Origin: Gemmatimonadota bacterium
Lineage (GTDB): Bacteria; Gemmatimonadota; Gemmatimonadetes; Gemmatimonadales; GWC2-71-9
Assembly: GCA_003169895.1 (NCBI GenBank)
Contig: PNAE01000011.1
Location: 5,001 to 45,333 of the forward strand
Length of the DNA: 40,333 bases
Direction of reading: 5' to 3'
Shown here: positions 1-10,791 of the stretch, piece after piece
How positions within the stretch are numbered: the first letter of the stretch is position 1
How the letters are laid out: every line of letters begins with the position of its first letter
Program-made: the position numbers and the translations under genes
The notes under the pieces: generated by a model
Told to the model about the DNA's origin: nothing
The model's input: only the letters and a program-made list of their open reading frames with translations
The model's database searches: none

Positions 1-301
1 CGTTACGCGTTCCGGTGGCCATCCGGTAGTCCTGACTGAACGCGACCTGGCAGCCGGGAGCAGCCGTGGCTTCCTCCGGCGAGAACAGGCAGGCCCCCAG
101 GTCGAGCACCGGCAGGGCGCGCGAGTCCGCCCGCACCAGGCCCGACGGCAGATCGCGGGCTGGCGCGCCGATCGCCGCCCCGGTGTCATCGCGCGACAAG
201 GTGGGGCGACCACGGAAGCGGGCCGGCAACGACACGTCGCGGTCGGGGAATTCCGATGTCGGCGTGCCCTGCATCAGGCGGGTGCGAAACAGGTCGAGCA
301 T
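1..301 (-). CDS. HycF/HyfI-like Fe-S subunit of the Ehr complex (N-terminal part, runs off window)
   Basis: The last visible gene of the operon; only about 100 N-terminal residues lie in the window. It starts at ATG 301-299, sharing one base with the TGA of the large-subunit gene (TGATG), so translation is probably coupled. The beginning (MLDLFRTRL, then ARFRGRPTL) resembles fused ferredoxin/NuoB-type small subunits of group 4 hydrogenase-like complexes. The ferredoxin-like part is degenerate: where relatives carry CxxCxxC, this protein has CLFSPEEA, followed by a lone Cys in APGCQVAF. The NuoB-like part, if present, is outside the window. The subunit would sit on the cytoplasmic arm of the membrane complex, passing electrons. 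Identification rests on position and N-terminal resemblance; loss of the clusters is directly visible for the part shown. Confidence 0.6.
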   Translation of the reverse strand, partial: MLDLFRTRLMQGTPTSEFPDRDVSLPARFRGRPTLSRDDTGAAIGAPARDLPSGLVRADSRALPVLDLGACLFSPEEATAAPGCQVAFSQDYRMATGTRN

Positions 302-1815
302 CAGAGATCGTGACCCGCGTACGAGAGGTTGAAGCTCTTGTTGCAAAGCGGGAAGTCGGAGATCTGGCCGCCGCGCATGGCGAGCGCGACCGCATCCCAA
401 TTTCGGAACGACGGGTCGGTGACCTTGTGACGGCGGATTCGTCCCGCGTCGTCGGTCACCGCGACATGCACGACCTCGCCCCGCCAGCCTTCCTCGAGCG
501 CGACGACCAGTTCGCCCGGTGCGAGTGCCCCGCACGGCACTCGGCACTCGCCCCTGGGCAGGGCACGGAGTTGCTCCGTCACGAACTCGAGCGACCGTTG
601 AATCTCGAGCCAACGCACCAGCGCGCGGGCGAACACGTCGCCCGCCCACGCCGACGCAACCGGGATCTGCACGAAGCGGTAGACGCCGTAGGGATAGTCG
701 TGGCGGACGTCGCGCAACACCCCCGCGCTCCGCGCCACCGGTCCCACGAATCCGTGCACGCCGCACAACTCCGCCGAGACGACGCCCGTGCCTTCGAAGC
801 GTGACTGCACCGACGGTGCGTCCAGCAGCAGGCTCGCGACGGGCGGAAGCGCTTCGCGCAGTTGCCCGACCCGCAGGCCGATCTCTGCCGCCATCTCCGC
901 CGGCACATCGAAGCCGACGCCGCCGGGCCGCACCAGGCCGCGCCCGTACCGGTTCCCCGACACCAGCATCAGCAAGTTGAGGCACTCGCCGCGCAGCCTG
1001 CCGAAGTAGGCCGCGGCCGGCTGATAGGCCACGTCGCCCGCCAGCGTGCCGAGATCCCCGATGTGATTCGCCAGACGTTCGAGCTCGAGCGCGATGCCGC
1101 GGAGCGCCTGTGCGCGCGGACTCTTCTGGCAGCGCGCCAGCGCCTCGATCGCGCCGCACCAGGCGCTGGTGTGGGCGATGACGGTATCGCCCGCAATCGA
1201 TTCGGCAACCAGCACCGCGCGCCGCCGGTCGAGGGCCTCCAGCAGTCGCTCCACGCCGCGGTGCTGGTAACCGAGCATGATGTCGAGCGAGAGCACCTCC
1301 TCGCCGTGCGCCTGGAAACGAAAGTGCCCCGGCTCGATCACACCGGCGTGCACCGGCCCGACGGCGACCTCGTGCACTTCTTCACCGGCGATGCTGGTGA
1401 ACGGGAACCAGTCGCGATCGTGCGGGCGAGCAGGCCAGCCGGACGGCGCGTGGTCCGGCGGGTGACGGCGGACCGGCTTTGGCGCCTGGAATCCCGCGAC
1501 GGCCGCGCCGCATTGCTCGGCGATTTCACGTTCGAACCGAGCCGCCTGTGGACAGCCACGTGACAGCGGCGGCAGCTGTTGCGAGACGAGGCTCGAGATC
1601 GCGCGCAACTGGCCCTGTTCATCGTCGCCGAGGACGGCCACGAGTCGCAGCGTGTCGGGCGTCTCGACGAGGCCAAAGAGCGAGATGATCCGGTCGCCGC
1701 CTGACACCGCGTCCGCAATCGTCTCGGCGAACCGGTCGCCGTCGAGCACGGGTACGCGGGCGAGCGGAGCCGCGCGCCGGTTCCGGAGCCGCAGCGCCTC
1801 GTCACGCCCGCTCAC
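301..1815 (-). CDS. HycE/HyfG-like (NuoC-NuoD fused) large subunit lacking Ni-Fe ligands
   Basis: A protein of 504 residues from GTG 1815, whose start overlaps the upstream stop (GTGA). Residues 1 to about 115 are a NuoC-like 30-kDa domain; the rest is NuoD/HycE-like, recognisable by EVAVGPVHAGVIEPGHFRF, by LGYQHRGVERL and by the C-terminal KSFNLSYAGHDL. In catalytic [NiFe] hydrogenases the segment after the HRG motif carries CGIC; here it reads ESIAGDTVIAHTSAWCG. The C-terminal DPCxxC is replaced by TDPSFRNW. The active-site metal therefore cannot be bound in the usual way. This matches energy-converting hydrogenase-related (Ehr) complexes and not a hydrogen-evolving enzyme. Its electron donor or acceptor is unknown. 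A longer in-frame start upstream is unlikely because it would overlap hyfF deeply. Confidence 0.85.
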   Translation of the reverse strand: MSGRDEALRLRNRRAAPLARVPVLDGDRFAETIADAVSGGDRIISLFGLVETPDTLRLVAVLGDDEQGQLRAISSLVSQQLPPLSRGCPQAARFEREIAEQCGAAVAGFQAPKPVRRHPPDHAPSGWPARPHDRDWFPFTSIAGEEVHEVAVGPVHAGVIEPGHFRFQAHGEEVLSLDIMLGYQHRGVERLLEALDRRRAVLVAESIAGDTVIAHTSAWCGAIEALARCQKSPRAQALRGIALELERLANHIGDLGTLAGDVAYQPAAAYFGRLRGECLNLLMLVSGNRYGRGLVRPGGVGFDVPAEMAAEIGLRVGQLREALPPVASLLLDAPSVQSRFEGTGVVSAELCGVHGFVGPVARSAGVLRDVRHDYPYGVYRFVQIPVASAWAGDVFARALVRWLEIQRSLEFVTEQLRALPRGECRVPCGALAPGELVVALEEGWRGEVVHVAVTDDAGRIRRHKVTDPSFRNWDAVALAMRGGQISDFPLCNKSFNLSYAGHDL

Positions 1816-3251
1816 GGTGCGCTCCCGCCAAGCGCCGTCGCGGCACGCGCCAGTTGCTGCTGCAGCGCCGATGGGATGTAGCTCCCCAGCATCAGTACGA
1901 TCCCGGCCAGCACCAACGGGCCGAGGACCATCCACGGCCGCTCGCGGTCGATCGCCACGAGCGGCGCCGCCGGACGTGCTCCGAGCACGATCTCGAGAAT
2001 CATGCGGGCGATGCCGACGAAGATCACCGCAAGCAATGCGAGCGCCACGATGGCGACTACGGGATGATGCTGTTGGACGGCGCCGCTCACGATCGCGAAC
2101 TCACTGAGGAACATCCCGAATGGCGGCGAACCGGTGATGGCGAACAGTCCCAGCACGGCGAGCATGGCCGAAACCGGACGCGCGCGCAACATGCCCCGCA
2201 TGTCGGCCGCCGCCGACGACCCCGCGGCCAGCACCAGGTTGCCAACGACAAGAAACAGCAGTCCCTTCACCAGGCCGTTGTTGAGCACATGAAGCACGGC
2301 ACCGTAGGTGCCGAGCCCACCGAGGCCGAGGCCGAGCGCAAGCAGCCCCATGTGCTCGACGCTGGAGTAGGCGAGGAGGCGCTTGACGTCGGCCTGCCCG
2401 ATGATGAACGCGGCAGCCACAACAAGGGAGAACAGTCCAAATGCGAGCAGGAGTGGGCGCGCAAATCCTTCGAGGCCGGCGGCCACGAGGATCTGCGTGA
2501 AGCGCGCCAATCCCAGGAAGGCGCAGCTCGTGATGCCGCCCGCCATGAGCGCCCCCACCAGGCTCGGCGCCTCGCCGTAGGTATCCGGCTTCCACGTGTG
2601 CATCGGCGCGAGTCCCATCTTCGTGCCGAAGCCGACGATGGCGAACACAAACGACGCCCGCAACCACCAGTGATCGAGGGAGCCCGCTCCAGCCACGAGA
2701 TCATCGAGCACCAGTGGCCGCGTGCCGGCCACGGAGGGCTGGGCGGTGGCGAGCAGGAACACCGCCAGCAGCGCCAATGCGATCCCGACCGACGATAGCA
2801 CCAGGTATTTCCACACCGCTTCCAGCGAACGGCGGTCGTGACGATCGTAGATCAGCGGTGCCAGGGACAGCGTGGTCGCCTCCATCCCCACCCACAGCAG
2901 CGCCAGGTGATGGCTGAGCGCGACCAGCGACGCAGCGCCGAGGAAAACGAGCATTCCGCTGGCGAGGACGCGACCTTCGCGCGCGCGTTGGGCGCGGAGG
3001 AAGCCGACCGCGTAGGACACCACGACGATGAACAACACGCTGTTCACGGTGAGCACGATCAGCCCCAGTCCGTCCACACCGAGCCAACCACCCAGCGCCG
3101 CCGTGCCCACCATGGTCCAGAGACGCGCCACCAGCATGACATGCACCGTCGCGCAGCCGAGCAGGAGCGCAGTCCGTGCACCGGGCCGTGTCACGAAGAA
3201 CGCCGGCACGGCGGCCAGCACCGGCATCAGGATGAGCGCGAGGAGAATCAC
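1812..3251 (-). CDS. hyfF: HyfF-like proton-translocating membrane subunit (NuoN/MrpD family)
   Basis: A 479-residue, strongly hydrophobic protein with about 14 membrane segments, a member of the antiporter-like subunit family of complex I and group 4 hydrogenases. GTG 3251 is chosen because it lies 13 bases after the hyfE stop with an AGGA run upstream and gives a membrane segment at once. Ion-channel residues of the family are present: a Glu in GMEATTL, Lys in WKYLVL and GTKMGLAPMHTW, and Lys in DVKRLLAYSSVEHMG, the last being typical of HyfF. It would translocate protons or sodium across the cytoplasmic membrane. It lies between hyfE and the large-subunit gene, the E. coli hyf order. A separate HyfD is absent, so the complex has two antiporter-like subunits. 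Confidence 0.88.
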   Translation of the reverse strand: MILLALILMPVLAAVPAFFVTRPGARTALLLGCATVHVMLVARLWTMVGTAALGGWLGVDGLGLIVLTVNSVLFIVVVSYAVGFLRAQRAREGRVLASGMLVFLGAASLVALSHHLALLWVGMEATTLSLAPLIYDRHDRRSLEAVWKYLVLSSVGIALALLAVFLLATAQPSVAGTRPLVLDDLVAGAGSLDHWWLRASFVFAIVGFGTKMGLAPMHTWKPDTYGEAPSLVGALMAGGITSCAFLGLARFTQILVAAGLEGFARPLLLAFGLFSLVVAAAFIIGQADVKRLLAYSSVEHMGLLALGLGLGGLGTYGAVLHVLNNGLVKGLLFLVVGNLVLAAGSSAAADMRGMLRARPVSAMLAVLGLFAITGSPPFGMFLSEFAIVSGAVQQHHPVVAIVALALLAVIFVGIARMILEIVLGARPAAPLVAIDRERPWMVLGPLVLAGIVLMLGSYIPSALQQQLARAATALGGSAP

Positions 3252-3264
3252 GTCGCCGGACGTC

Positions 3265-3903
3265 CTACGATTCCCGTAGTTCGCTGAGGTTGGTCGCCGA
3301 GATCGAATCGAACTCCCGGTTGATGTGGAACACGACGATGCCCATGACGAACACGCCGACGAACACGTCAAGGAGCACGCCGGCTTCGACCAGGAACGGG
3401 ACGCGGCGCGCCTGGGTGAGGCCGAACAGGTAGATCCCGTTCTCGAGCATGAGGTATCCCACGACCTGGCTGATCGCCTTCGTCCTGGTGATCAGCACGA
3501 CGAGACCGATCATGACGGTCACGAGTGCAACCGGCACGAGCAACGGGCCGCTTCCCGTGGCGGGAAGCCGCGCAGCCACGGCGAACGAGACGACCAGCGC
3601 CGCGGCTCCGAGCAGGAACGATGGCATGTAGCCGACCAGCGGCTCGACCTCGCGCCGTACCGATGCCTCGCGAATCGCCCAGCGCAGAAACCACGGCAGC
3701 AGCATCGCCTTGATCGCGATCGTGCCGAGCGCCAGCGCAATGGCATGGATCGACCAGGCACCGTCGACGACCAGCGACAGCGTGCCGAGGAGGACGCCCT
3801 GTGAGGCAATGGCGCGAATGCATGCGCTCAGGCGCGACGTCGCGAGCACGGCGAAATCCGTCAGGACGACGAGCAGCAGGATGGGTTCCGCGAGCGAGTG
3901 CAT
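3265..3903 (-). CDS. hyfE: HyfE-like membrane subunit
   Basis: A 212-residue membrane protein, the usual length of the family. It corresponds to HyfE, whose N- and C-terminal parts relate to MrpC/NuoK-like small subunits. The start at ATG 3903 (MHSLAEPILLL) is 7 bases after the hyfC stop; longer frames upstream would overlap hyfC. Hydrophobic segments fill most of the protein, and the stretch VVLITRTKAISQVVGYLMLE followed by NGIYLF is the conserved NuoK-like signature with a buried Glu. It would help form the ion path between the antiporter-like subunits and the HyfC quinone or heel region. No unusual features were seen. Confidence 0.85.
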   Translation of the reverse strand: MHSLAEPILLLVVLTDFAVLATSRLSACIRAIASQGVLLGTLSLVVDGAWSIHAIALALGTIAIKAMLLPWFLRWAIREASVRREVEPLVGYMPSFLLGAAALVVSFAVAARLPATGSGPLLVPVALVTVMIGLVVLITRTKAISQVVGYLMLENGIYLFGLTQARRVPFLVEAGVLLDVFVGVFVMGIVVFHINREFDSISATNLSELRES

Positions 3904-3910
3904 CGTCGGC

Positions 3911-4819
3911 TCAGCGAACCACGAGGACGAGACCGAACCCAGCGAGCGCAGCGGCCCCGGCGAGGTAGAGCGGCACCGTGGGCAACCGGAGCCGGGCCGT
4001 CGCCGACTCGACCACCCCCACGGCAATGGCCACCCCGACCGTCCCGGCAACCAGGATCGCGAGCGCGACCGGCAGGGACCGCGCCGGCGCGGGCACGATC
4101 AGTGCGACGACCAGCGCGCTGAAGACGGCGAGCTTGGCGGCGCCGGCGAAGAGCAGCAGCGCAAGATCGGGCCCGCCATGGTCGAGCACCATCACCTCGT
4201 GAATCATGGTGAGCTCGAGATGCGTGCTCGGATCATCGACCGGCACGCGCGCGCATTCCGCCAGCAACAGCGAGAACAGTCCGAGCGCAACCATCACGAG
4301 CGACGGTGCGGCCTGCGCCCAGTGCCGGCCGAGCGGCGCGCCAAGCATCCCCGAGAGCGACAATTCCTGCGTTGCGACGGCCAGTGTGGCGATGGCGAAG
4401 AACAGCCCCAGTTCCACGATGCTCGCGAAGGTGACCTCGCGGCTGGCCCCCATGCCTTCGAAGCTGGATCCCGTGTCGAGCGCTCCAAGTACCAACAGGA
4501 AGCGGCCGAGCCCAAGGAGATAGGCGAAGGCGACGGCATCGCCGGAAAACCGCAGCACGCTACTGGTTCGGTCGAGGGGCACCAGCGTGGCCGCGATCAC
4601 GACGGTCGCCGCGACCACGATTGGAGCGAGGCGGAAAATCGGCGTTGTCGTCTCGCTGTAGACCACGCCCCGCCGCATCAGCTTCCAGAGGTCGATGTAG
4701 AGTTGGTGTACCGGCGGCCCGCGGCGGCCGGTCAGCAGCGAGCGCGTCCGCGCGGCGACACCGGGGAGGAGCGGCGCGAGCATGAGAAGCAGGGCCAGCG
4801 ACAGGATGGCGGAGAGCAT
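3911..4819 (-). CDS. hyfC: HyfC-like (NuoH family) membrane anchor subunit
   Basis: A 302-residue protein of the NuoH/HycD/HyfC family, which anchors the hydrophilic arm to the membrane domain. ATG 4819 (MLSAILSLALLL) is 11 bases after the hyfB stop. A first membrane segment is followed by the family loop GRRGPPVHQLYIDLWKLMRR and VYSETTTPIFRLAP. Cytoplasmic-loop acidic residues are present in PVDDPSTHLELTMIHEVMVL, another HyfC/HycD signature. Eight or so membrane segments are expected. The gene sits between hyfB and hyfE as in other hyf-type operons. A longer open frame continues upstream but overlaps hyfB and has no membrane character. Confidence 0.88.
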   Translation of the reverse strand: MLSAILSLALLLMLAPLLPGVAARTRSLLTGRRGPPVHQLYIDLWKLMRRGVVYSETTTPIFRLAPIVVAATVVIAATLVPLDRTSSVLRFSGDAVAFAYLLGLGRFLLVLGALDTGSSFEGMGASREVTFASIVELGLFFAIATLAVATQELSLSGMLGAPLGRHWAQAAPSLVMVALGLFSLLLAECARVPVDDPSTHLELTMIHEVMVLDHGGPDLALLLFAGAAKLAVFSALVVALIVPAPARSLPVALAILVAGTVGVAIAVGVVESATARLRLPTVPLYLAGAAALAGFGLVLVVR

Positions 4820-4830
4820 CGGCGCGGTCG

Positions 4831-6798
4831 CTAGCGGGTCGGGGCGAGAACGAGATAGCCGAGCACCAGCACGACCGTCACGACCACGTAGATGAGATAG
4901 ACGTGCAAGCGTCCCTGCTGCATCGGTCGCAGGCGCAGGGCCGCCCGCTCGACGCGCGCCCAGAGCGGCAGCACGGCCGCATCGAGCACGAGATCGACCG
5001 GCGTGGAGTGGAAAACGGTGGCACCGCGATGCTCGCGCACGCCGGCCAGCCGGCCGAAGACCGACGCCAGCGGCGCGGCGAAGGACGACGCCGTGTACTG
5101 CATCCGCGGCGTCGGATGAGGGTAGCCGCACGCCCAGGTCGGGCCCGTGCGAACGACCTGGCGTCGCAGCGCGGCGCGACGCGCCAGCCAGAGGATCGCG
5201 CCAACGAGCAGGAGCCCGATCGCCAGCCACGAAATGCGCCCGGCGTCGGCGAAGACATCACTCAACGCCGCCGCGATTGGCACCCAGTGTTCCCCGGCCA
5301 CCGTTGCGCCGACGACCATCACGGGGCGCATGACCAGCGCCGGGACGGTTCCGATGACGACACAGGCGAACGCGAGCACCAGCACCGGCGCGAGTAGCCC
5401 GGCGCCGGCTTCGCGTGCCTCGGCGGCTTGGCTGCTGCGTGGATGTCCCAAGAAAACGATTCCGGCGACCTTGGCGAAGCAGGCCAGCGCCAGACCGCCG
5501 ACCAGTGCGAGCGCGGGTGCCGCGAACACGACGAGCCGGAGCGCCTCGGCCGACTGCCCCGCGCGCAACAGTCCTTGAAATACCAGCCATTCGCTCACGA
5601 AACCATTCAGCGGCGGTACCCCGATAATCGCCACAGCTGCGACGAGAAAGCCGAGCCAGGTCAGCGGCATGCGCCGCGCGAGTCCGCCGAGTTGCTCCAG
5701 GTCGCGCGTCCCCGTCGCGCGATAGATGGCGCCCGCCGCGAGGAAGAGCGCGCCCTTGAAGAGCGCATGGTTCAGGCTGTGCAGCGCCGCCGCGCCATAG
5801 CCGATGACGGCAATGATCGGATGTCCAGAGGCCGCGCCGAGCGCGCCAACGCCGACACCGATCAGGATGATCCCGATGTTCTCGACACTGTGATACGCGA
5901 GCAGACGTTTCACGTCGTGCTGCACCAGCGCCCAGAGAACGCCGAGCACCGCGGAAGCGACGCCAATCGCAAGCACCACCCACCCCCACCACGCCGGCGG
6001 CGGCCCAAGGAGCGCGACCACGCGCAGAATACCGTAGATCCCCATCTTGATTACGACGCCGGACATCAATGCGGACACGTGACTCGGTGCCGACGCGTGC
6101 GCCGCAGGCAGCCAGAAGTGCAAGGGGACCAAGCCGGCCTTGGCACCGAAGCCAACGAGTGCGAGCGCGAGCACCACGCCGCCGCCGAGTGCGAGCCGGG
6201 GCCCGTTGGCGGCGAGCGCCGCAAAGGTCCAGTCGCGGCTGCCGCTCGTCCAGATCGCGAACATCGCGAGCAACGCCAGCGTCCCGGCATGAGTCGTCAC
6301 GAGGTAGATCAGCCCGGCTCGCCGCACCGTCGGGTGTTCGTGTTCCGTTACGATGAGGACATAGGAGCCGAGCGCCATCAGCTCCCACGCGCCAAGAAAG
6401 AGCAGGACGGATCGGGCGGTTACGACGAGGGCCATGGCGGCGAGGACCAGCGCGAACGCGGCATGACTCAACCAGACCGCACGATGACCCCGCTCCCGCG
6501 CCTGGTAGGCCGCGCCGAAGGCCGCGCTCGCCGCGCCGACGACCAGAATCGCCAGCAGGAAGATCGCCGACAGCGGATCGATCCCGAGAACCCAGTCACC
6601 GCCGGGAACACCCGCCCGCCACCGAAGCTGCGGCAGTGTGGCGCCGAGCAGCACCTGAACCGCGGGGACGCTGGCGACCGCCGCACCGGCAATGACGCAC
6701 GCGGTGAAGACCCCGTCGCCGAAGCTCCGTCGCCGGAACGCCGCGCAACTCGCGGCGGCGACGAGCAGCAGCGCCATGCCGGCCAGGAAAGCCGTCAC
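4831..6798 (-). CDS. hyfB: HyfB-like antiporter-type membrane subunit (NuoL family)
   Basis: A 655-residue NuoL/HyfB family protein. GTG 6798 overlaps the TGA of the upstream HTH-EIIA gene (GTGA); an ATG seven codons inside is an alternative. Channel residues of the family are visible: Glu in LFLGAWELMALGSY, Lys in GAKAGLVPLHFWLP, Lys in HDVKRLLAYHSVENIG and Lys in NHALFKGALFL. The C-terminal part contains WACGYPHPTPRMQYTASSFA, typical of HyfB and HycC, and ends in a further membrane helix. It would pump ions in the membrane arm, driven by electron transfer in the hydrophilic arm. The translational coupling ties its synthesis to the EIIA-like protein. Confidence 0.9.
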   Translation of the reverse strand: MTAFLAGMALLLVAAASCAAFRRRSFGDGVFTACVIAGAAVASVPAVQVLLGATLPQLRWRAGVPGGDWVLGIDPLSAIFLLAILVVGAASAAFGAAYQARERGHRAVWLSHAAFALVLAAMALVVTARSVLLFLGAWELMALGSYVLIVTEHEHPTVRRAGLIYLVTTHAGTLALLAMFAIWTSGSRDWTFAALAANGPRLALGGGVVLALALVGFGAKAGLVPLHFWLPAAHASAPSHVSALMSGVVIKMGIYGILRVVALLGPPPAWWGWVVLAIGVASAVLGVLWALVQHDVKRLLAYHSVENIGIILIGVGVGALGAASGHPIIAVIGYGAAALHSLNHALFKGALFLAAGAIYRATGTRDLEQLGGLARRMPLTWLGFLVAAVAIIGVPPLNGFVSEWLVFQGLLRAGQSAEALRLVVFAAPALALVGGLALACFAKVAGIVFLGHPRSSQAAEAREAGAGLLAPVLVLAFACVVIGTVPALVMRPVMVVGATVAGEHWVPIAAALSDVFADAGRISWLAIGLLLVGAILWLARRAALRRQVVRTGPTWACGYPHPTPRMQYTASSFAAPLASVFGRLAGVREHRGATVFHSTPVDLVLDAAVLPLWARVERAALRLRPMQQGRLHVYLIYVVVTVVLVLGYLVLAPTR

Positions 6799-7505
6799 CC
6801 GATGGGGCTCTTGCTCGCGGCGTACGAGCCGGTGCGATAGTTGGTCTCCACCAGTTCGATGCGGCCGAGAATTTCGTCCGCGGCAGCACTGGCGAGCAGC
6901 AGCCGGCGCAGCGTCGCGTCCCGCAGCACGAATGCCAGCTGTCCCAGGATCCGGAGGTGCCCGGGCACGGTGGTGCTCACCACCAGGAACACGGCGTGCA
7001 CCGGCCGGCCATCGGGTGCATCGAAGTCCACCGGATGACGCAGCAGGCCCAACGTGACGAACGGTTCCTCGACGTGCAGGACGATGGGATTGCGGACATG
7101 CGGGATGGCGATGCCGTCTCCGATCGCGGTCGAACCCATGGCTTCGCGCGCCTCGAGCACGCTGAGGACGAATGCCCGGTCCTGTTCCGGCGGAAGGGGC
7201 AATCGATCGACGAACGCCCGCAGTGCATCCGGCTTCGTTGCGCCCTCGACATCGTGAAAGATGCCGCCGGCGCGCAGCAGGTCGACGAGCCGCGGCGGTT
7301 CGTCGGGCGACCGCCTGGCCGTCTCAAGCAGCCCGCGAGACACCGGGATGCCGTGTTCGACGGCCCACTCCCAGAGCTCGAGTGGGTTCAGGTAGATCCG
7401 CTCGTAGACCTCATGCACGGGGAGACCGCGCTGGCTGATCCAGCGCCGCAGCGTCGGCTCGTTGACTCCGAAGTAGGACGCGGCTTCGCGAACCGTGAGT
7501 TGCAC
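6795..7505 (-). CDS. HTH-EIIA(Ntr) fusion protein at the head of the Ehr operon
   Basis: A protein of 236 residues. Residues 1-55 are an excisionase/MerR-like helix-turn-helix (LTVREAASYFGVNEPTLRRW). Residues about 85-230 are a PTS EIIA domain of the fructose/Ntr type, with the phosphorylatable His in GIAIPHVR and the later HLRILGQLAFVLRD. Such a protein could act as a phosphorylation-responsive regulator and not as a sugar transporter part; no EIIB, EIIC, HPr or EI gene is nearby. The start is GTG 7505, 30 bases after hmgA, without a clear Shine-Dalgarno run; TAGATT just upstream could be a -10 element giving a nearly leaderless message (weak). Its stop overlaps hyfB, so it is co-transcribed with the membrane complex. 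Domain calls are firm; the role is inferred. Confidence 0.82.
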   Translation of the reverse strand: MQLTVREAASYFGVNEPTLRRWISQRGLPVHEVYERIYLNPLELWEWAVEHGIPVSRGLLETARRSPDEPPRLVDLLRAGGIFHDVEGATKPDALRAFVDRLPLPPEQDRAFVLSVLEAREAMGSTAIGDGIAIPHVRNPIVLHVEEPFVTLGLLRHPVDFDAPDGRPVHAVFLVVSTTVPGHLRILGQLAFVLRDATLRRLLLASAAADEILGRIELVETNYRTGSYAASKSPIG

Positions 7506-7535: not shown

Positions 7536-8729
7536 TCAGCTCGTGGGCGGGCTGAACGCCGCGTGCTGCTGATCCAGCCACGACTTGTGGTAGGTTGGAT
7601 CCTCGAACGCTTCAGCCGCCTTGGCGACGTGCAGCGGCCGGAACGAATCCATCATCACCGCCAGTTCGTTGGTGTACTTGGCGCCGATGCTGGCCTCGGC
7701 GCGCCCGGGATGCGGGCCGTGGGGCAGTCCATCGGGATGATGCGTGATCGACCCGTACTCGATGCCCTTGCGGCTCATGAACTCGCTCGAGGCATAGAAG
7801 AGCACCTCGTCGGAATCGACATTGCTGTGGTTGTACGGTGCGGGGACGGCGTTGGGATCGAAGTCGTATGGGCGGGGGCAAAACGAGCAGATGACGAAGC
7901 CATCGCCCTGGAACGTCTGGTGCACCGGCGGCGGCTGGTGAATGCGTCCCACGATCGGCTCGAAGTCGTGGATGCTGAACGCCCAGGGATAGTAGTACCC
8001 ATCCCACCCCACGACGTCGAACGGATGGTGGTCGAGCATCAGTTCATTGATGGCATCGTATTGCTTGACGAGCACCGGAAAATCGCCGGCCTCGTCGTGC
8101 GCATTCAGCTCGAGCGGGCGGCGGATATCGCGTTCGGAATACGGGGCACCCTCGAGCAGCTGGCCGAACTCGTTGCGATAGCGCTTGGGCCACCGGACGT
8201 GGCCCCGGCTCTCGAACACGACGAACTTCGCCGGACCCTTGCCGTAGTCGATCACCCACCGATGCGTGATATTGCGATGGATGACCACGTAGTCACCCGA
8301 GCGGAACGGCAAGTTGCCGAACACCGACTCGAGCATCCCCTCGCCCTCAACCACATAGATCACCTCGTCCGCCTGCGAGTTGCGGTACGCATGCACATCC
8401 TGCTGGTCGGGTGCGACGTACAGCATGGCGATGTCAGTGTTGAAGAGGATCGGCGTGCGGTCGAGCGTCGGCGAGCCGCCCGCACGTGCCGCGGCGGTGC
8501 GGAAGTGCCGGTGCCGCAGCGACGTGTCCTCATCGGCGTCCCAGCGGATCAGCTTCACCCGCCGAGCCGCCTTCACCGTGGTCGGCGGCCTGGTGTGATA
8601 CAGGAGCGACGACGTGCCGGTAAAGCCATCGTGGCCCATCAGCTCTTCGGCGTAGAGGCCGCCGTCAGGCCGCCGGAAGACGGTGTGGCGTTTGCGAGGC
8701 ACCTGGCCGAGGGTGTGGTAGATCGGCAT
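7536..8729 (-). CDS. hmgA: Homogentisate 1,2-dioxygenase
   Basis: A 397-residue enzyme of the cupin-type homogentisate dioxygenase family. It opens the aromatic ring of homogentisate with O2 to give maleylacetoacetate and needs Fe(II). The N-terminal region (MPIYHTLGQVPRKRHTVF) and a central NHSNVDSDEVLFYASSEF, followed by HHPDGLPHGPHPG, are conserved; they hold the expected His/Glu/His iron ligands. ATG 8729 lies two bases after the hppD stop, so the two genes form one unit. It is the last aromatic-pathway gene here; maleylacetoacetate isomerase and fumarylacetoacetase are not in the window. Length is close to the shorter bacterial members. Identification is confident. Confidence 0.93.
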   Translation of the reverse strand: MPIYHTLGQVPRKRHTVFRRPDGGLYAEELMGHDGFTGTSSLLYHTRPPTTVKAARRVKLIRWDADEDTSLRHRHFRTAAARAGGSPTLDRTPILFNTDIAMLYVAPDQQDVHAYRNSQADEVIYVVEGEGMLESVFGNLPFRSGDYVVIHRNITHRWVIDYGKGPAKFVVFESRGHVRWPKRYRNEFGQLLEGAPYSERDIRRPLELNAHDEAGDFPVLVKQYDAINELMLDHHPFDVVGWDGYYYPWAFSIHDFEPIVGRIHQPPPVHQTFQGDGFVICSFCPRPYDFDPNAVPAPYNHSNVDSDEVLFYASSEFMSRKGIEYGSITHHPDGLPHGPHPGRAEASIGAKYTNELAVMMDSFRPLHVAKAAEAFEDPTYHKSWLDQQHAAFSPPTS

Positions 8730-8731
8730 CG

Positions 8732-9859
8732 TCAGAGATTCCCTCGCAGCGCCTGCTCTCGCTCGATCGCCTCGAACAGGGCCTTGAAGTTCCCTGCCCC
8801 GAAGCTCTTGGCGCCCTTGCGCTGGATGATCTCGTAGAACAGCGTCGGCCGGTCCTGCACCGGCTTGGTGAAGATCTGCAGCAGGTACCCTTCGTCATCG
8901 CGGTCGACAAGGACGCCAAGCTCGGCCAGCGGCGCGAGATCCTCGTCAATCCGGCCCACGCGGTCGAGCACGGTGTCGTAGTAGGTCTGCGGCACCTTGA
9001 GGAACTCGATGCCCCGGCTCCGCAGCTCCCGCACGGTCTTGACGATGTCGTCGGTGGCGATGGCGATGTGCTGCACCCCGGGTCCGCGATAGAAGTCGAG
9101 GTATTCCTCGATCTGCGACTTCTTCTTCCCGGGCGCCGGCTCATTGATGGGGAACTTGATGCGGCCGTTGCCGTTCGACATGACCTTGGACATCAGCGCC
9201 GAGTATTCGGTGGTGATCGTCTTGTCGTCAAAGGTGAGGATGTTGGTGAAACCGAGAACGTCCTCGTAGAACTTGACCCAGACGTTCATCTTGCCAAGCT
9301 CGACGTTGCCGACGCAGTGGTCGACGTACTTGAGTCCGGTGCCGACCGGCTGGTACGGCGACGCCACCGGGACAAATCCCGGGAAGAACAGGCCGTGGTA
9401 ATTGGTCCGTTCGACGATCGAGTGAATCGTGTCGCCATAGGTTCGGATCGCCGCGGTGACAATCTCGCCATGCTCGTCGCGGTGCACCGTTGGTTCCTGG
9501 TAGCTCTGCGCGCCGCGGTCCATCGCGGCCTGGTATGCGGTGCGGGCGTCGGGCACCCAGAACGCCATGTCGTGCACGCCGTCGCCGTGCTTGTGGAGGT
9601 GCGCCGCGATCTCACCCTCGGGGCCCATCGGCGACGTGAGCACGATGCGGAGCTTGTCCTGCACCAGCAGATACGACGCGCGATCCCGGACACCGGTCTC
9701 GGGCCCGCGATAACCGACGAGCTGGTGGCCCCACGCGGCGCGATAATAGTGGGCCGATTGCTTGGCGTTGCCGCAATAGAACTCGATGTAGTCGGTACCG
9801 TTGATCGGGAAAGCGTCGTGCGTCACGGCCGGCGCCGCCGATGTCAAGGTGGATGTCAT
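8732..9859 (-). CDS. hppD: 4-hydroxyphenylpyruvate dioxygenase
   Basis: A 375-residue vicinal-oxygen-chelate enzyme that converts 4-hydroxyphenylpyruvate and O2 to homogentisate and CO2. Two VOC halves are visible. The N-terminal one begins at about residue 18 (NGTDYIEFYCGNAKQSA). The C-terminal one carries the first iron His in KYVDHCVGNVELG, the second in GPGVQHIAIATDDI, and the Glu in RPTLFYEIIQRKGAKSFGAG, so all three Fe(II) ligands are present. ATG 9859 overlaps the phhA stop (ATGA); a longer frame upstream would run into phhA. The order phhA-hppD-hmgA follows the reaction order except for the transamination step, whose gene is not here. Confidence 0.95.
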   Translation of the reverse strand: MTSTLTSAAPAVTHDAFPINGTDYIEFYCGNAKQSAHYYRAAWGHQLVGYRGPETGVRDRASYLLVQDKLRIVLTSPMGPEGEIAAHLHKHGDGVHDMAFWVPDARTAYQAAMDRGAQSYQEPTVHRDEHGEIVTAAIRTYGDTIHSIVERTNYHGLFFPGFVPVASPYQPVGTGLKYVDHCVGNVELGKMNVWVKFYEDVLGFTNILTFDDKTITTEYSALMSKVMSNGNGRIKFPINEPAPGKKKSQIEEYLDFYRGPGVQHIAIATDDIVKTVRELRSRGIEFLKVPQTYYDTVLDRVGRIDEDLAPLAELGVLVDRDDEGYLLQIFTKPVQDRPTLFYEIIQRKGAKSFGAGNFKALFEAIEREQALRGNL

Positions 9860-10791
9860 GTTGCCGCTCCGAGGAAGGAAGCCAGGTCGGTCGCGCTGAT
9901 GGCGGGTTCGCCGGGGCTGACATTGTCGAGCTTGCCCGCCGTGACCCAATCCGCCAGCCGACCGACCTCACTGAACAGATGATCGAATGAATCAACCACA
10001 AAGAGCAGCGGCTGATAGTGATCGATTTCGAAGGACTGGTTGACCACCCACTCGAGCTGGAACGGCCAGCGCTGGACGTCGGGAGACTCGATGCAATGCT
10101 CCAGTTCGCCATACGACGAGAGCAGGCCGCTGCCGTACGCCTTGAGTTCCCCGGGTCGGGTGCCTTTCATCAGGCCGAACTCGATCGTGAACCAGAAAAA
10201 GCGGGCCATGGCCTTGATCACGCTGGTCATGCGGCGCACCCGCTCGTGCTCATCGGCGACAACTTGCGCGCGTTCAGCCGCGGCGCGCGCGCACTCGCCG
10301 AACAGGACCAGCGTGTCGGCGAAGGCCTTGTCGGTATGCATCGGCACATGACCGGCGATGTCGTGGAAGATGTCCGGTTCGGGCAGATAGTCGAGCACCT
10401 CGCCGTCGCGGATCGTGATGGTCGTGGGAAACTCACGCTGCCGGAGGCAATCAAAGAACATGTACGCCGGGACGTAGCCGCTGACGGCCTTGGCGCGAAA
10501 CCCGGTCAGCGGCGCCATGAATCGGTTGACGGCTTCGAGGGGTGGCACGTGCATGGGATCGAGGCAGAGATTCTCGATGCCCTGGAGAAAACGGTGGTTG
10601 GCGTATTTTTGCCACCGATCGGCCATCCGCGCGTACAGTCGCCGCCAAGCGTCGTGGTTGGCGGGCGTGTACAACTCGTACGGCTGCTCGATGTACAGCC
10701 GTCCCTCCGACTTGGCCTGTTCGATGAACGGCGCTCGGGTAGTGGTCAACCCCGCCGAGGTCTCACGCGGATTCGAGGCGGTCGTCGTCAT
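9856..10791 (-). CDS. phhA: Phenylalanine 4-monooxygenase
   Basis: A 311-residue pterin-dependent aromatic amino acid hydroxylase, which makes tyrosine from phenylalanine. The Fe(II) site is intact: HDIAGH in PDIFHDIAGHVPMH gives two His, and the Glu is in FWFTIEFGL. A well-placed GGAGG lies 5 bases before ATG 10791, which fixes the start. It is the first gene of the phhA-hppD-hmgA unit, so a promoter should lie in 10792-10975, the intergenic region behind aacS. The length is near that of bacterial enzymes (about 260-310 residues), with a modest N-terminal extension. No regulatory ACT domain is present. A tryptophan or tyrosine hydroxylase is unlikely given the operon context. Confidence 0.93.
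   Translation of the reverse strand: MTTTASNPRETSAGLTTTRAPFIEQAKSEGRLYIEQPYELYTPANHDAWRRLYARMADRWQKYANHRFLQGIENLCLDPMHVPPLEAVNRFMAPLTGFRAKAVSGYVPAYMFFDCLRQREFPTTITIRDGEVLDYLPEPDIFHDIAGHVPMHTDKAFADTLVLFGECARAAAERAQVVADEHERVRRMTSVIKAMARFFWFTIEFGLMKGTRPGELKAYGSGLLSSYGELEHCIESPDVQRWPFQLEWVVNQSFEIDHYQPLLFVVDSFDHLFSEVGRLADWVTAGKLDNVSPGEPAISATDLASFLGAAT

Follow-up and report, generated by a model that had tools for sequence, protein, structure and literature searches.

The window analyzed here is the whole of a 40,333-nucleotide stretch of a Gemmatimonadota genome (contig PNAE01000011.1; G000:C4:5001-45333 in our dataset; genome 3.42 Mb, 98% complete), and its minus strand carries an operon for a membrane complex of the energy-converting hydrogenase-related (Ehr) family. 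Our analysis shows that this complex has lost the Ni-Fe ligands of its large subunit together with both [4Fe-4S] ligand sets of the ferredoxin domain in its small subunit, and that its membrane arm retains nearly all of the channel residues examined. The loss of the ferredoxin ligand sets is the new part, and it lies outside the coordinates covered by a preliminary description of the locus. On the best reading of these sequences, electrons probably do not enter the complex via its ferredoxin domain, and it may even do without a redox drive. We place a probability of about 0.5 on a redox-stripped, ion-translocating Ehr complex, in which the peripheral arm would serve as a gate or a ligand or redox sensor under PtsN-like control.

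The preliminary description had proposed Ehr membership and named a large-subunit phylogeny as a check, and the proposal is supported by the tree, by the architecture, and by the absence of the Ni-Fe ligands. In a tree of 100 large subunits, the window protein groups with known Ehr and not with hydrogenases, inside a 93-row Ehr clade (100/100) that also includes Geobacter and Geomonas; E. coli HycE and HyfG fall outside the clade, as does a four-cysteine homolog, L051 (related loci carry L numbers). The group 4 hydrogenase/complex I core is present, with the large and small subunits and the NuoH-like, NuoL/M-like and HyfE subunits, the small subunit being only partly covered. Large-subunit homologs with more than 60% identity come from Gemmatimonadota metagenome-assembled genomes (MAGs) and from one MAG filed under Eisenbacteria.

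Alignment of the window HyfG to HycE of E. coli shows the Ni-Fe ligands C241, C244, C531 and C534 replaced by A248, T251, S538 and G541, and ligand cysteines are absent from all Ehr rows aligned. The earlier observation of AGDT in place of CGIC is seen in this alignment; the second motif is also lost as had been described, both cysteine pairs being absent, but the site itself reads SFNLSYAG (against SLDPCYSC), and the TDPSFRNW originally assigned to it aligns with HycE ATYANW. SYAG characterizes the clade of the window and SYCG most other Ehr members. The idea that SYCG gave way to SYAG together with the loss of ferredoxin was considered and rejected, as ferredoxin-intact SYAG members exist and L228 combines SYCG with ferredoxin loss; on the tree, which shows two changes, SYAG looks ancestral. 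HycE D529, the canopy Asp, is described as invariant among hydrogenases and complex I (PMC9474812), and the window and 18 of 18 aligned relatives have Asn there. A more distant variant (L282, L283 and L284), in which the gene order runs small subunit, PtsN-like, HyfB-C-E-F-G, keeps the Asp (D versus N536). Residues of the HycE proton path (E193, R478, H284, E437 and R395) are kept, as E201, R485, H291, E444 and R402 in the window. The β1–β2 loop (HAGVIEPGHFR) is hydrogenase-like and not of the NuoD HPxTHG type, a separate NuoD with HPATHG being encoded elsewhere in the same genome. An AlphaFold2 model of HyfG (predicted local distance difference test, pLDDT, 89.8) finds its best match in HycE of formate hydrogenlyase (FHL), with a Z score of 42.6 and a root-mean-square deviation of 2.6 over 477 residues.

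In this Ehr family, a two-cluster ferredoxin domain and a HyfI-like domain that carries the N2 cluster are fused in the small subunit. All eight ferredoxin cysteines are kept in 66 of 123 small subunits (L058, L059, L170, L172 and L177 were treated as duplicates and excluded from the counts). In the window both [4Fe-4S] ligand sets are lost, Cys being found at one of the eight ligand columns. The set is missing throughout the clade formed by Gemmatimonadota and the Eisenbacteria MAG, in graded stages from 5/8 to 0/8, and CLFSPEE or a close variant replaces CLFCxxC in nearly all members of the Gemmatimonadota clade. Omnitrophota have lost the ferredoxin domain independently, often by outright deletion, and incomplete ligand sets are seen repeatedly, among others in Elusimicrobia and Geobacter. 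Ferredoxin-type clusters alongside N2 are typical of this subfamily but not of all Ehr, and their loss marks a variant and is not family-defining.

The ferredoxin region also differs from the rest of the complex in its constraint. Pairwise identity of the Fd1 region is 19% in Gemmatimonadota members versus 39% in intact members, and that of the N2 domain is 74% versus 71%. In three close ferredoxin-lost relatives (L037, L038 and L056), the ratio of nonsynonymous to synonymous substitution rates (dN/dS) is 0.11–0.18 for HyfG, HyfB, HyfC and the N2 domain and 0.40–0.63 for the ferredoxin region; more distant pairs show a contrast in the same direction, but smaller. The subunits are thus under purifying selection, with the ferredoxin region alone relaxed, which indicates a complex still in use whose electron inlet is decaying. 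In an AlphaFold2 model of the L056 small subunit, the N2 domain is well defined, and residues 45–57, where Fd1 once lay, have pLDDT below 50.

Loss of cofactor sites extends in some relatives to N2 itself. Among the 116 small subunits scored, five depart from the N2 ligand set. L062 does so by one residue, and the other four do so substantially and in intact open reading frames (ORFs): L118 (motifs NAAE, GAEA, PGW; ligands NEEW), L131 (DGSV, GTCA, PGW; DVCW), L134 (CGAA, GACA, PGW; CACW) and L181 (SGAD, GTEA, PGF; SDEF). Frameshifts were rejected as the cause in these four by inspection of the ORFs. A further survey added L281 (SGAE, GAEA, PGW; SEEW), which lies in a 5.96-Mb contig. In a quick tree built from few columns, L134, L131 and L281 form one clade in which two, three and four N2 ligands are lost, respectively, and since L118 and L181 fall apart from it, at least three independent N2 losses are indicated; this small-subunit tree is poorly resolved, and the loss counts taken from it are approximate. 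In L181, on a contig of only 4.5 kb, the ferredoxin ligands are lost as well, so that no known cofactor site is left. Membrane-arm residues are kept in all of the N2-lost members wherever the subunit is readable.

In the window, the membrane residues named in the FHL structure paper are kept with few exceptions. The HyfB-like subunit retains the counterparts of HycC E135, K239, E294, H328, H332, K336 and E391 and has the Lys of transmembrane helix 7 (K220) that HycC itself has lost; the position of HycC D354 is Asp, a position variable among relatives. HyfF E164, K251, K330 and K369 are all kept, as are HycD E130, E138, E189, E203 and E206 in the HyfC-like subunit. The earlier claim that all membrane subunits keep their channel Glu and Lys holds for every residue checked except two, HycD E199 and E201, which are S203 and H205 in the window.

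A gene combining a helix–turn–helix (HTH) domain with a phosphotransferase system (PTS) EIIA domain lies inside the operon in 54 of the 67 loci whose upstream sequence extends for 3 kb or more. The phospho-acceptor His (IPH motif) was detected in 71 of 76 PtsN-like copies, some of the remaining five having escaped only the search pattern (IPH is present in L115 and L057). The window genome also carries PTS enzyme I and a second EIIA. In E. coli, regulators of the PtsN type control the transport of K+. A SulP/SLC26 transporter gene adjoins the operon in Gemmatimonadaceae (L037, L038, L056, L178 and L180) and in Omnitrophota (L101, L224, L228 and L237), the latter being 55–58% identical to the former, and further SulP genes stand beside it in L133 (Verrucomicrobia, ferredoxin-intact) and in the more distant L284. 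The best solved relative is 6ki1, with the entry name low affinity sulfate transporter, which we take to be BicA. No SulP match was found in the window genome. SulP is present in 9 of 17 ferredoxin-lost loci versus 1 of 49 others (Fisher 5.7e-6); a strict tie to ferredoxin loss was rejected, as L133 is ferredoxin-intact, and a phylogenetic pair test has no power because the sample contains only two independent ferredoxin losses.

Taken together, these observations show a Geobacter-type Ehr complex that keeps the ion-translocating membrane arm and the coupling loops and has lost the Ni-Fe site and the ferredoxin clusters. Such a complex would most likely move cations or protons in an antiporter- or channel-like manner, as Mrp and DAB do, its peripheral arm would gate transport or sense a ligand or redox state rather than drive transport via electrons, and the PtsN-like EIIA protein would control the ion translocator. 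With the electron inlet decaying as constraint on it relaxes, and with even N2 absent from some lineages in which the membrane arm is still constrained, the conserved function may be ion movement and not electron-transfer catalysis. A stronger version holds that some Ehr have given up electron transfer entirely and keep the ion-translocating arm and a PtsN-type regulator, with the whole peripheral arm gating ion transport free of redox chemistry and a SulP/BicA-like anion transporter as a partner in some lineages; it is somewhat less than an even bet.

The possibility that the complex works as a formate hydrogenlyase or a group 4 hydrogenase can be set aside with near certainty. This reading would fit the automated models (the best NCBIfam models of both antiporter subunits, below their cut-offs, are hydrogenase 4 F and B) and the presence of hyp genes, for which the preliminary description had recommended a search: HypD is indeed found (C8:1729722). 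However, alignment rejects a hydrogenase identity, all four Ni-Fe cysteines being absent, and the hyp genes do not contradict an Ehr assignment because another hydrogenase in the genome, a catalytic one, accounts for them; its group-1-like large subunit has all four cysteines (CGVC...DPCMAC; C8:1735590). A decaying relic on its way to pseudogenes might account for the patchy distribution (a match in 36 of the phylum's 395 genomes and in 0 of 9 from the same genus), but the intact, overlapping ORFs, the low dN/dS among close relatives and the invariant channel residues make this very improbable. The preliminary description had concluded that the complex pumps ions with some redox reaction other than that of H2. 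The exclusion of H2 stands, and the redox part is weakened because the ferredoxin clusters are lost in the clade and N2 in some relatives while the ion-channel residues are kept.

The main rival retains a redox drive: a soluble donor (ferredoxin, flavodoxin, a thiol or a small molecule) would reduce N2 directly at the place of the former ferredoxin domain, and the cavity that once held Ni-Fe would be the site of substrate reduction, the scheme proposed for MBS/Mbx. Several points count against a redox-stripped transporter. N2 ligands are 4/4 in 111 of 116 scored small subunits, which implies that N2 matters in most members and could still receive electrons. The N2 part of the window's own small subunit lies outside the analyzed sequence, and the ligands are 4/4 in nearly all close relatives, from which the window complex would be expected to retain a single N2-type [4Fe-4S] cluster. 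In L281 (1-9053), a single membrane-arm operon is followed by two large/small pairs, the first N2-intact and the second N2-less, so that two peripheral arms possibly serve one membrane arm. The cavity residues AGD, SFNLSY, E201 and R485 are conserved, and the kept proton path is compatible with cavity chemistry. To our knowledge, transport activity is known for no Ehr. The rival is also favored by the intact ferredoxin domain of many other Ehr, and is countered by the complete loss of ferredoxin ligands in two clades, by the loss of N2 in three lineages that retain the membrane arm, and by the neighborhood, as clustering of the flanks of 93 loci found no conserved oxidoreductase (formate dehydrogenase, NuoE/F or flavoprotein) that could be the redox partner. 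We regard a redox drive of this kind as possible, if rather doubtful. A further, improbable alternative confines N2 to redox or O2/NO sensing, the sensor opening or closing an otherwise passive antiporter. This would agree with one isolated cluster being the sole cofactor site left in most ferredoxin-lost members and with the role of PtsN-type regulators noted above, but N2-less lineages exist, and N2 sensing is therefore not universal.

The module was described as lying at 301-6798, and ORFs for subunits resembling HyfB, HyfC, HyfE, HyfF and HyfG are found there on the minus strand; this extent is correct as far as it goes but too small, since the PtsN-like gene and the small subunit also belong to the operon. 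Its order is PtsN-like, HyfB, HyfC, HyfE, HyfF, HyfG and the start of the small subunit, with adjacent ORFs overlapping (Table 1). About 100 N-terminal residues of the small subunit fall within the window, the rest lying beyond its edge. Pfam matches in the module are Complex1_49kDa, Proton_antipo_M (two) and NADHdh, with Oxidored_q2 just under the cut-off.

Table 1. Features of the Ehr operon in the window
Feature	Coordinates	Strand	Basis or remark
Small subunit, N-terminal part (fused HyfH-like ferredoxin + HyfI-like)	1..301	-	1-base overlap with HyfG stop codon; aligned with relatives
Degenerate ferredoxin domain, TIPL/CSEA, Cys at 1/8 ligand columns	50..202	-	alignment
HyfG/EhrL-like large subunit ORF; true start probably internal	301..1935	-	profiles, alignment, AlphaFold2 model
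SYAG replacing CYSC, second Ni-Fe ligand pair	313..324	-	alignment
Asn536 replacing canopy Asp (HycE D529)	328..330	-	alignment
AGDT replacing CGIC, first Ni-Fe ligand pair	1183..1194	-	alignment
Glu201, kept counterpart of proton-donating HycE E193, β1–β2 loop	1333..1335	-	alignment
HyfF-like antiporter subunit	1812..3371	-	profile matches, alignment
HyfE-like subunit	3265..3921	-	profile matches, alignment
HyfC/NuoH-like subunit	3911..4834	-	profile match, alignment
HyfB/NuoL-like antiporter subunit	4831..6798	-	profile matches, alignment
PtsN-like regulator, HTH_17 + PTS EIIA; 4-bp overlap with hyfB start	6795..7505	-	profiles, operon conservation
EIIA phospho-acceptor His codon	7098-7100	-	PtsN-like gene

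Upstream on the same strand (7536-10791) are a divergent homogentisate-dioxygenase-like gene, 4-hydroxyphenylpyruvate dioxygenase and phenylalanine hydroxylase. These tyrosine-degradation genes end 30 bp before the PtsN-like gene, and the linkage is absent from the first 19 relatives' loci compared. Among other relatives, L051 (1-7325; G120:C236), from the same taxonomic order, encodes a four-cysteine, hydrogenase-like homolog (CGVC, LCYSC) near the Ehr clade; the ligand set of its fused ferredoxin domain is incomplete (4/8). A second Ehr type, with SFDLSYSGND or similar, occurs in L240-L244 and L125 (12470-19889). The L240-L244 small subunits match over their N2 portion only, and most of these second-type operons (L240-L244, L125) have no adjoining ORF with a ferredoxin motif. 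The close relatives L041, L042, L044, L060 and L173 carry a tandem pair of HyfB-like subunits, possibly giving a longer membrane arm.

In the parts consulted of four papers on Ehr (PMC6349859, PMC7894505, PMC10284858, PMC6728331), the function is called unknown or formate-linked redox roles are suggested, and loss of Fe-S ligands is not described; literature searching directed at Fe-S loss in Ehr gave no hits, and the founding paper of 2013 is not among these sources, so this is no proof of novelty. For complex I, the coupling between redox chemistry and ion movement is a long-standing question, and relatives that lose their cofactors stepwise, down to none in L181, under a constrained membrane arm offer a natural experiment on electron-free running and gating. 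Ehr complexes also gain a concrete functional hypothesis and two genetic leads, the PtsN-like regulator and the SulP transporter.

The NuoL-like subunits of Mrp and DAB/MpsAB work without an electron chain, and in MBS/Mbx a hydrogenase-like arm without a working Ni-Fe site takes electrons from ferredoxin. Unlike the window complex, Mrp and DAB/MpsAB (for MpsAB, PMC6689103) have no NuoD/NuoB-like peripheral arm. Pyrococcus MBS/Mbx (6u8y) gives a match to MbxL of 68 bits, much weaker than that to FHL. E. coli FHL-1/Hyf (7z0s) shares the large-subunit fold, the proton path and the membrane residues, but differs in having the four Ni-Fe cysteines, the canopy Asp and a separately encoded ferredoxin-like HycF/HyfH. 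The Mycobacterium tuberculosis Rv0081-Rv0087 EHR (PMC6728331) is likewise described as an Ehr of undetermined function. Geobacter EhrA/C/L/S (PMC7894505; Ehr also in PMC6349859 and PMC10284858) has the same HyfB/C/E/F/G/I architecture, lacks the Ni-Fe ligands and falls in the same 93-row clade; compared with other Ehr, the clade of the window additionally lacks the ferredoxin ligands and has SYAG where most others have SYCG.

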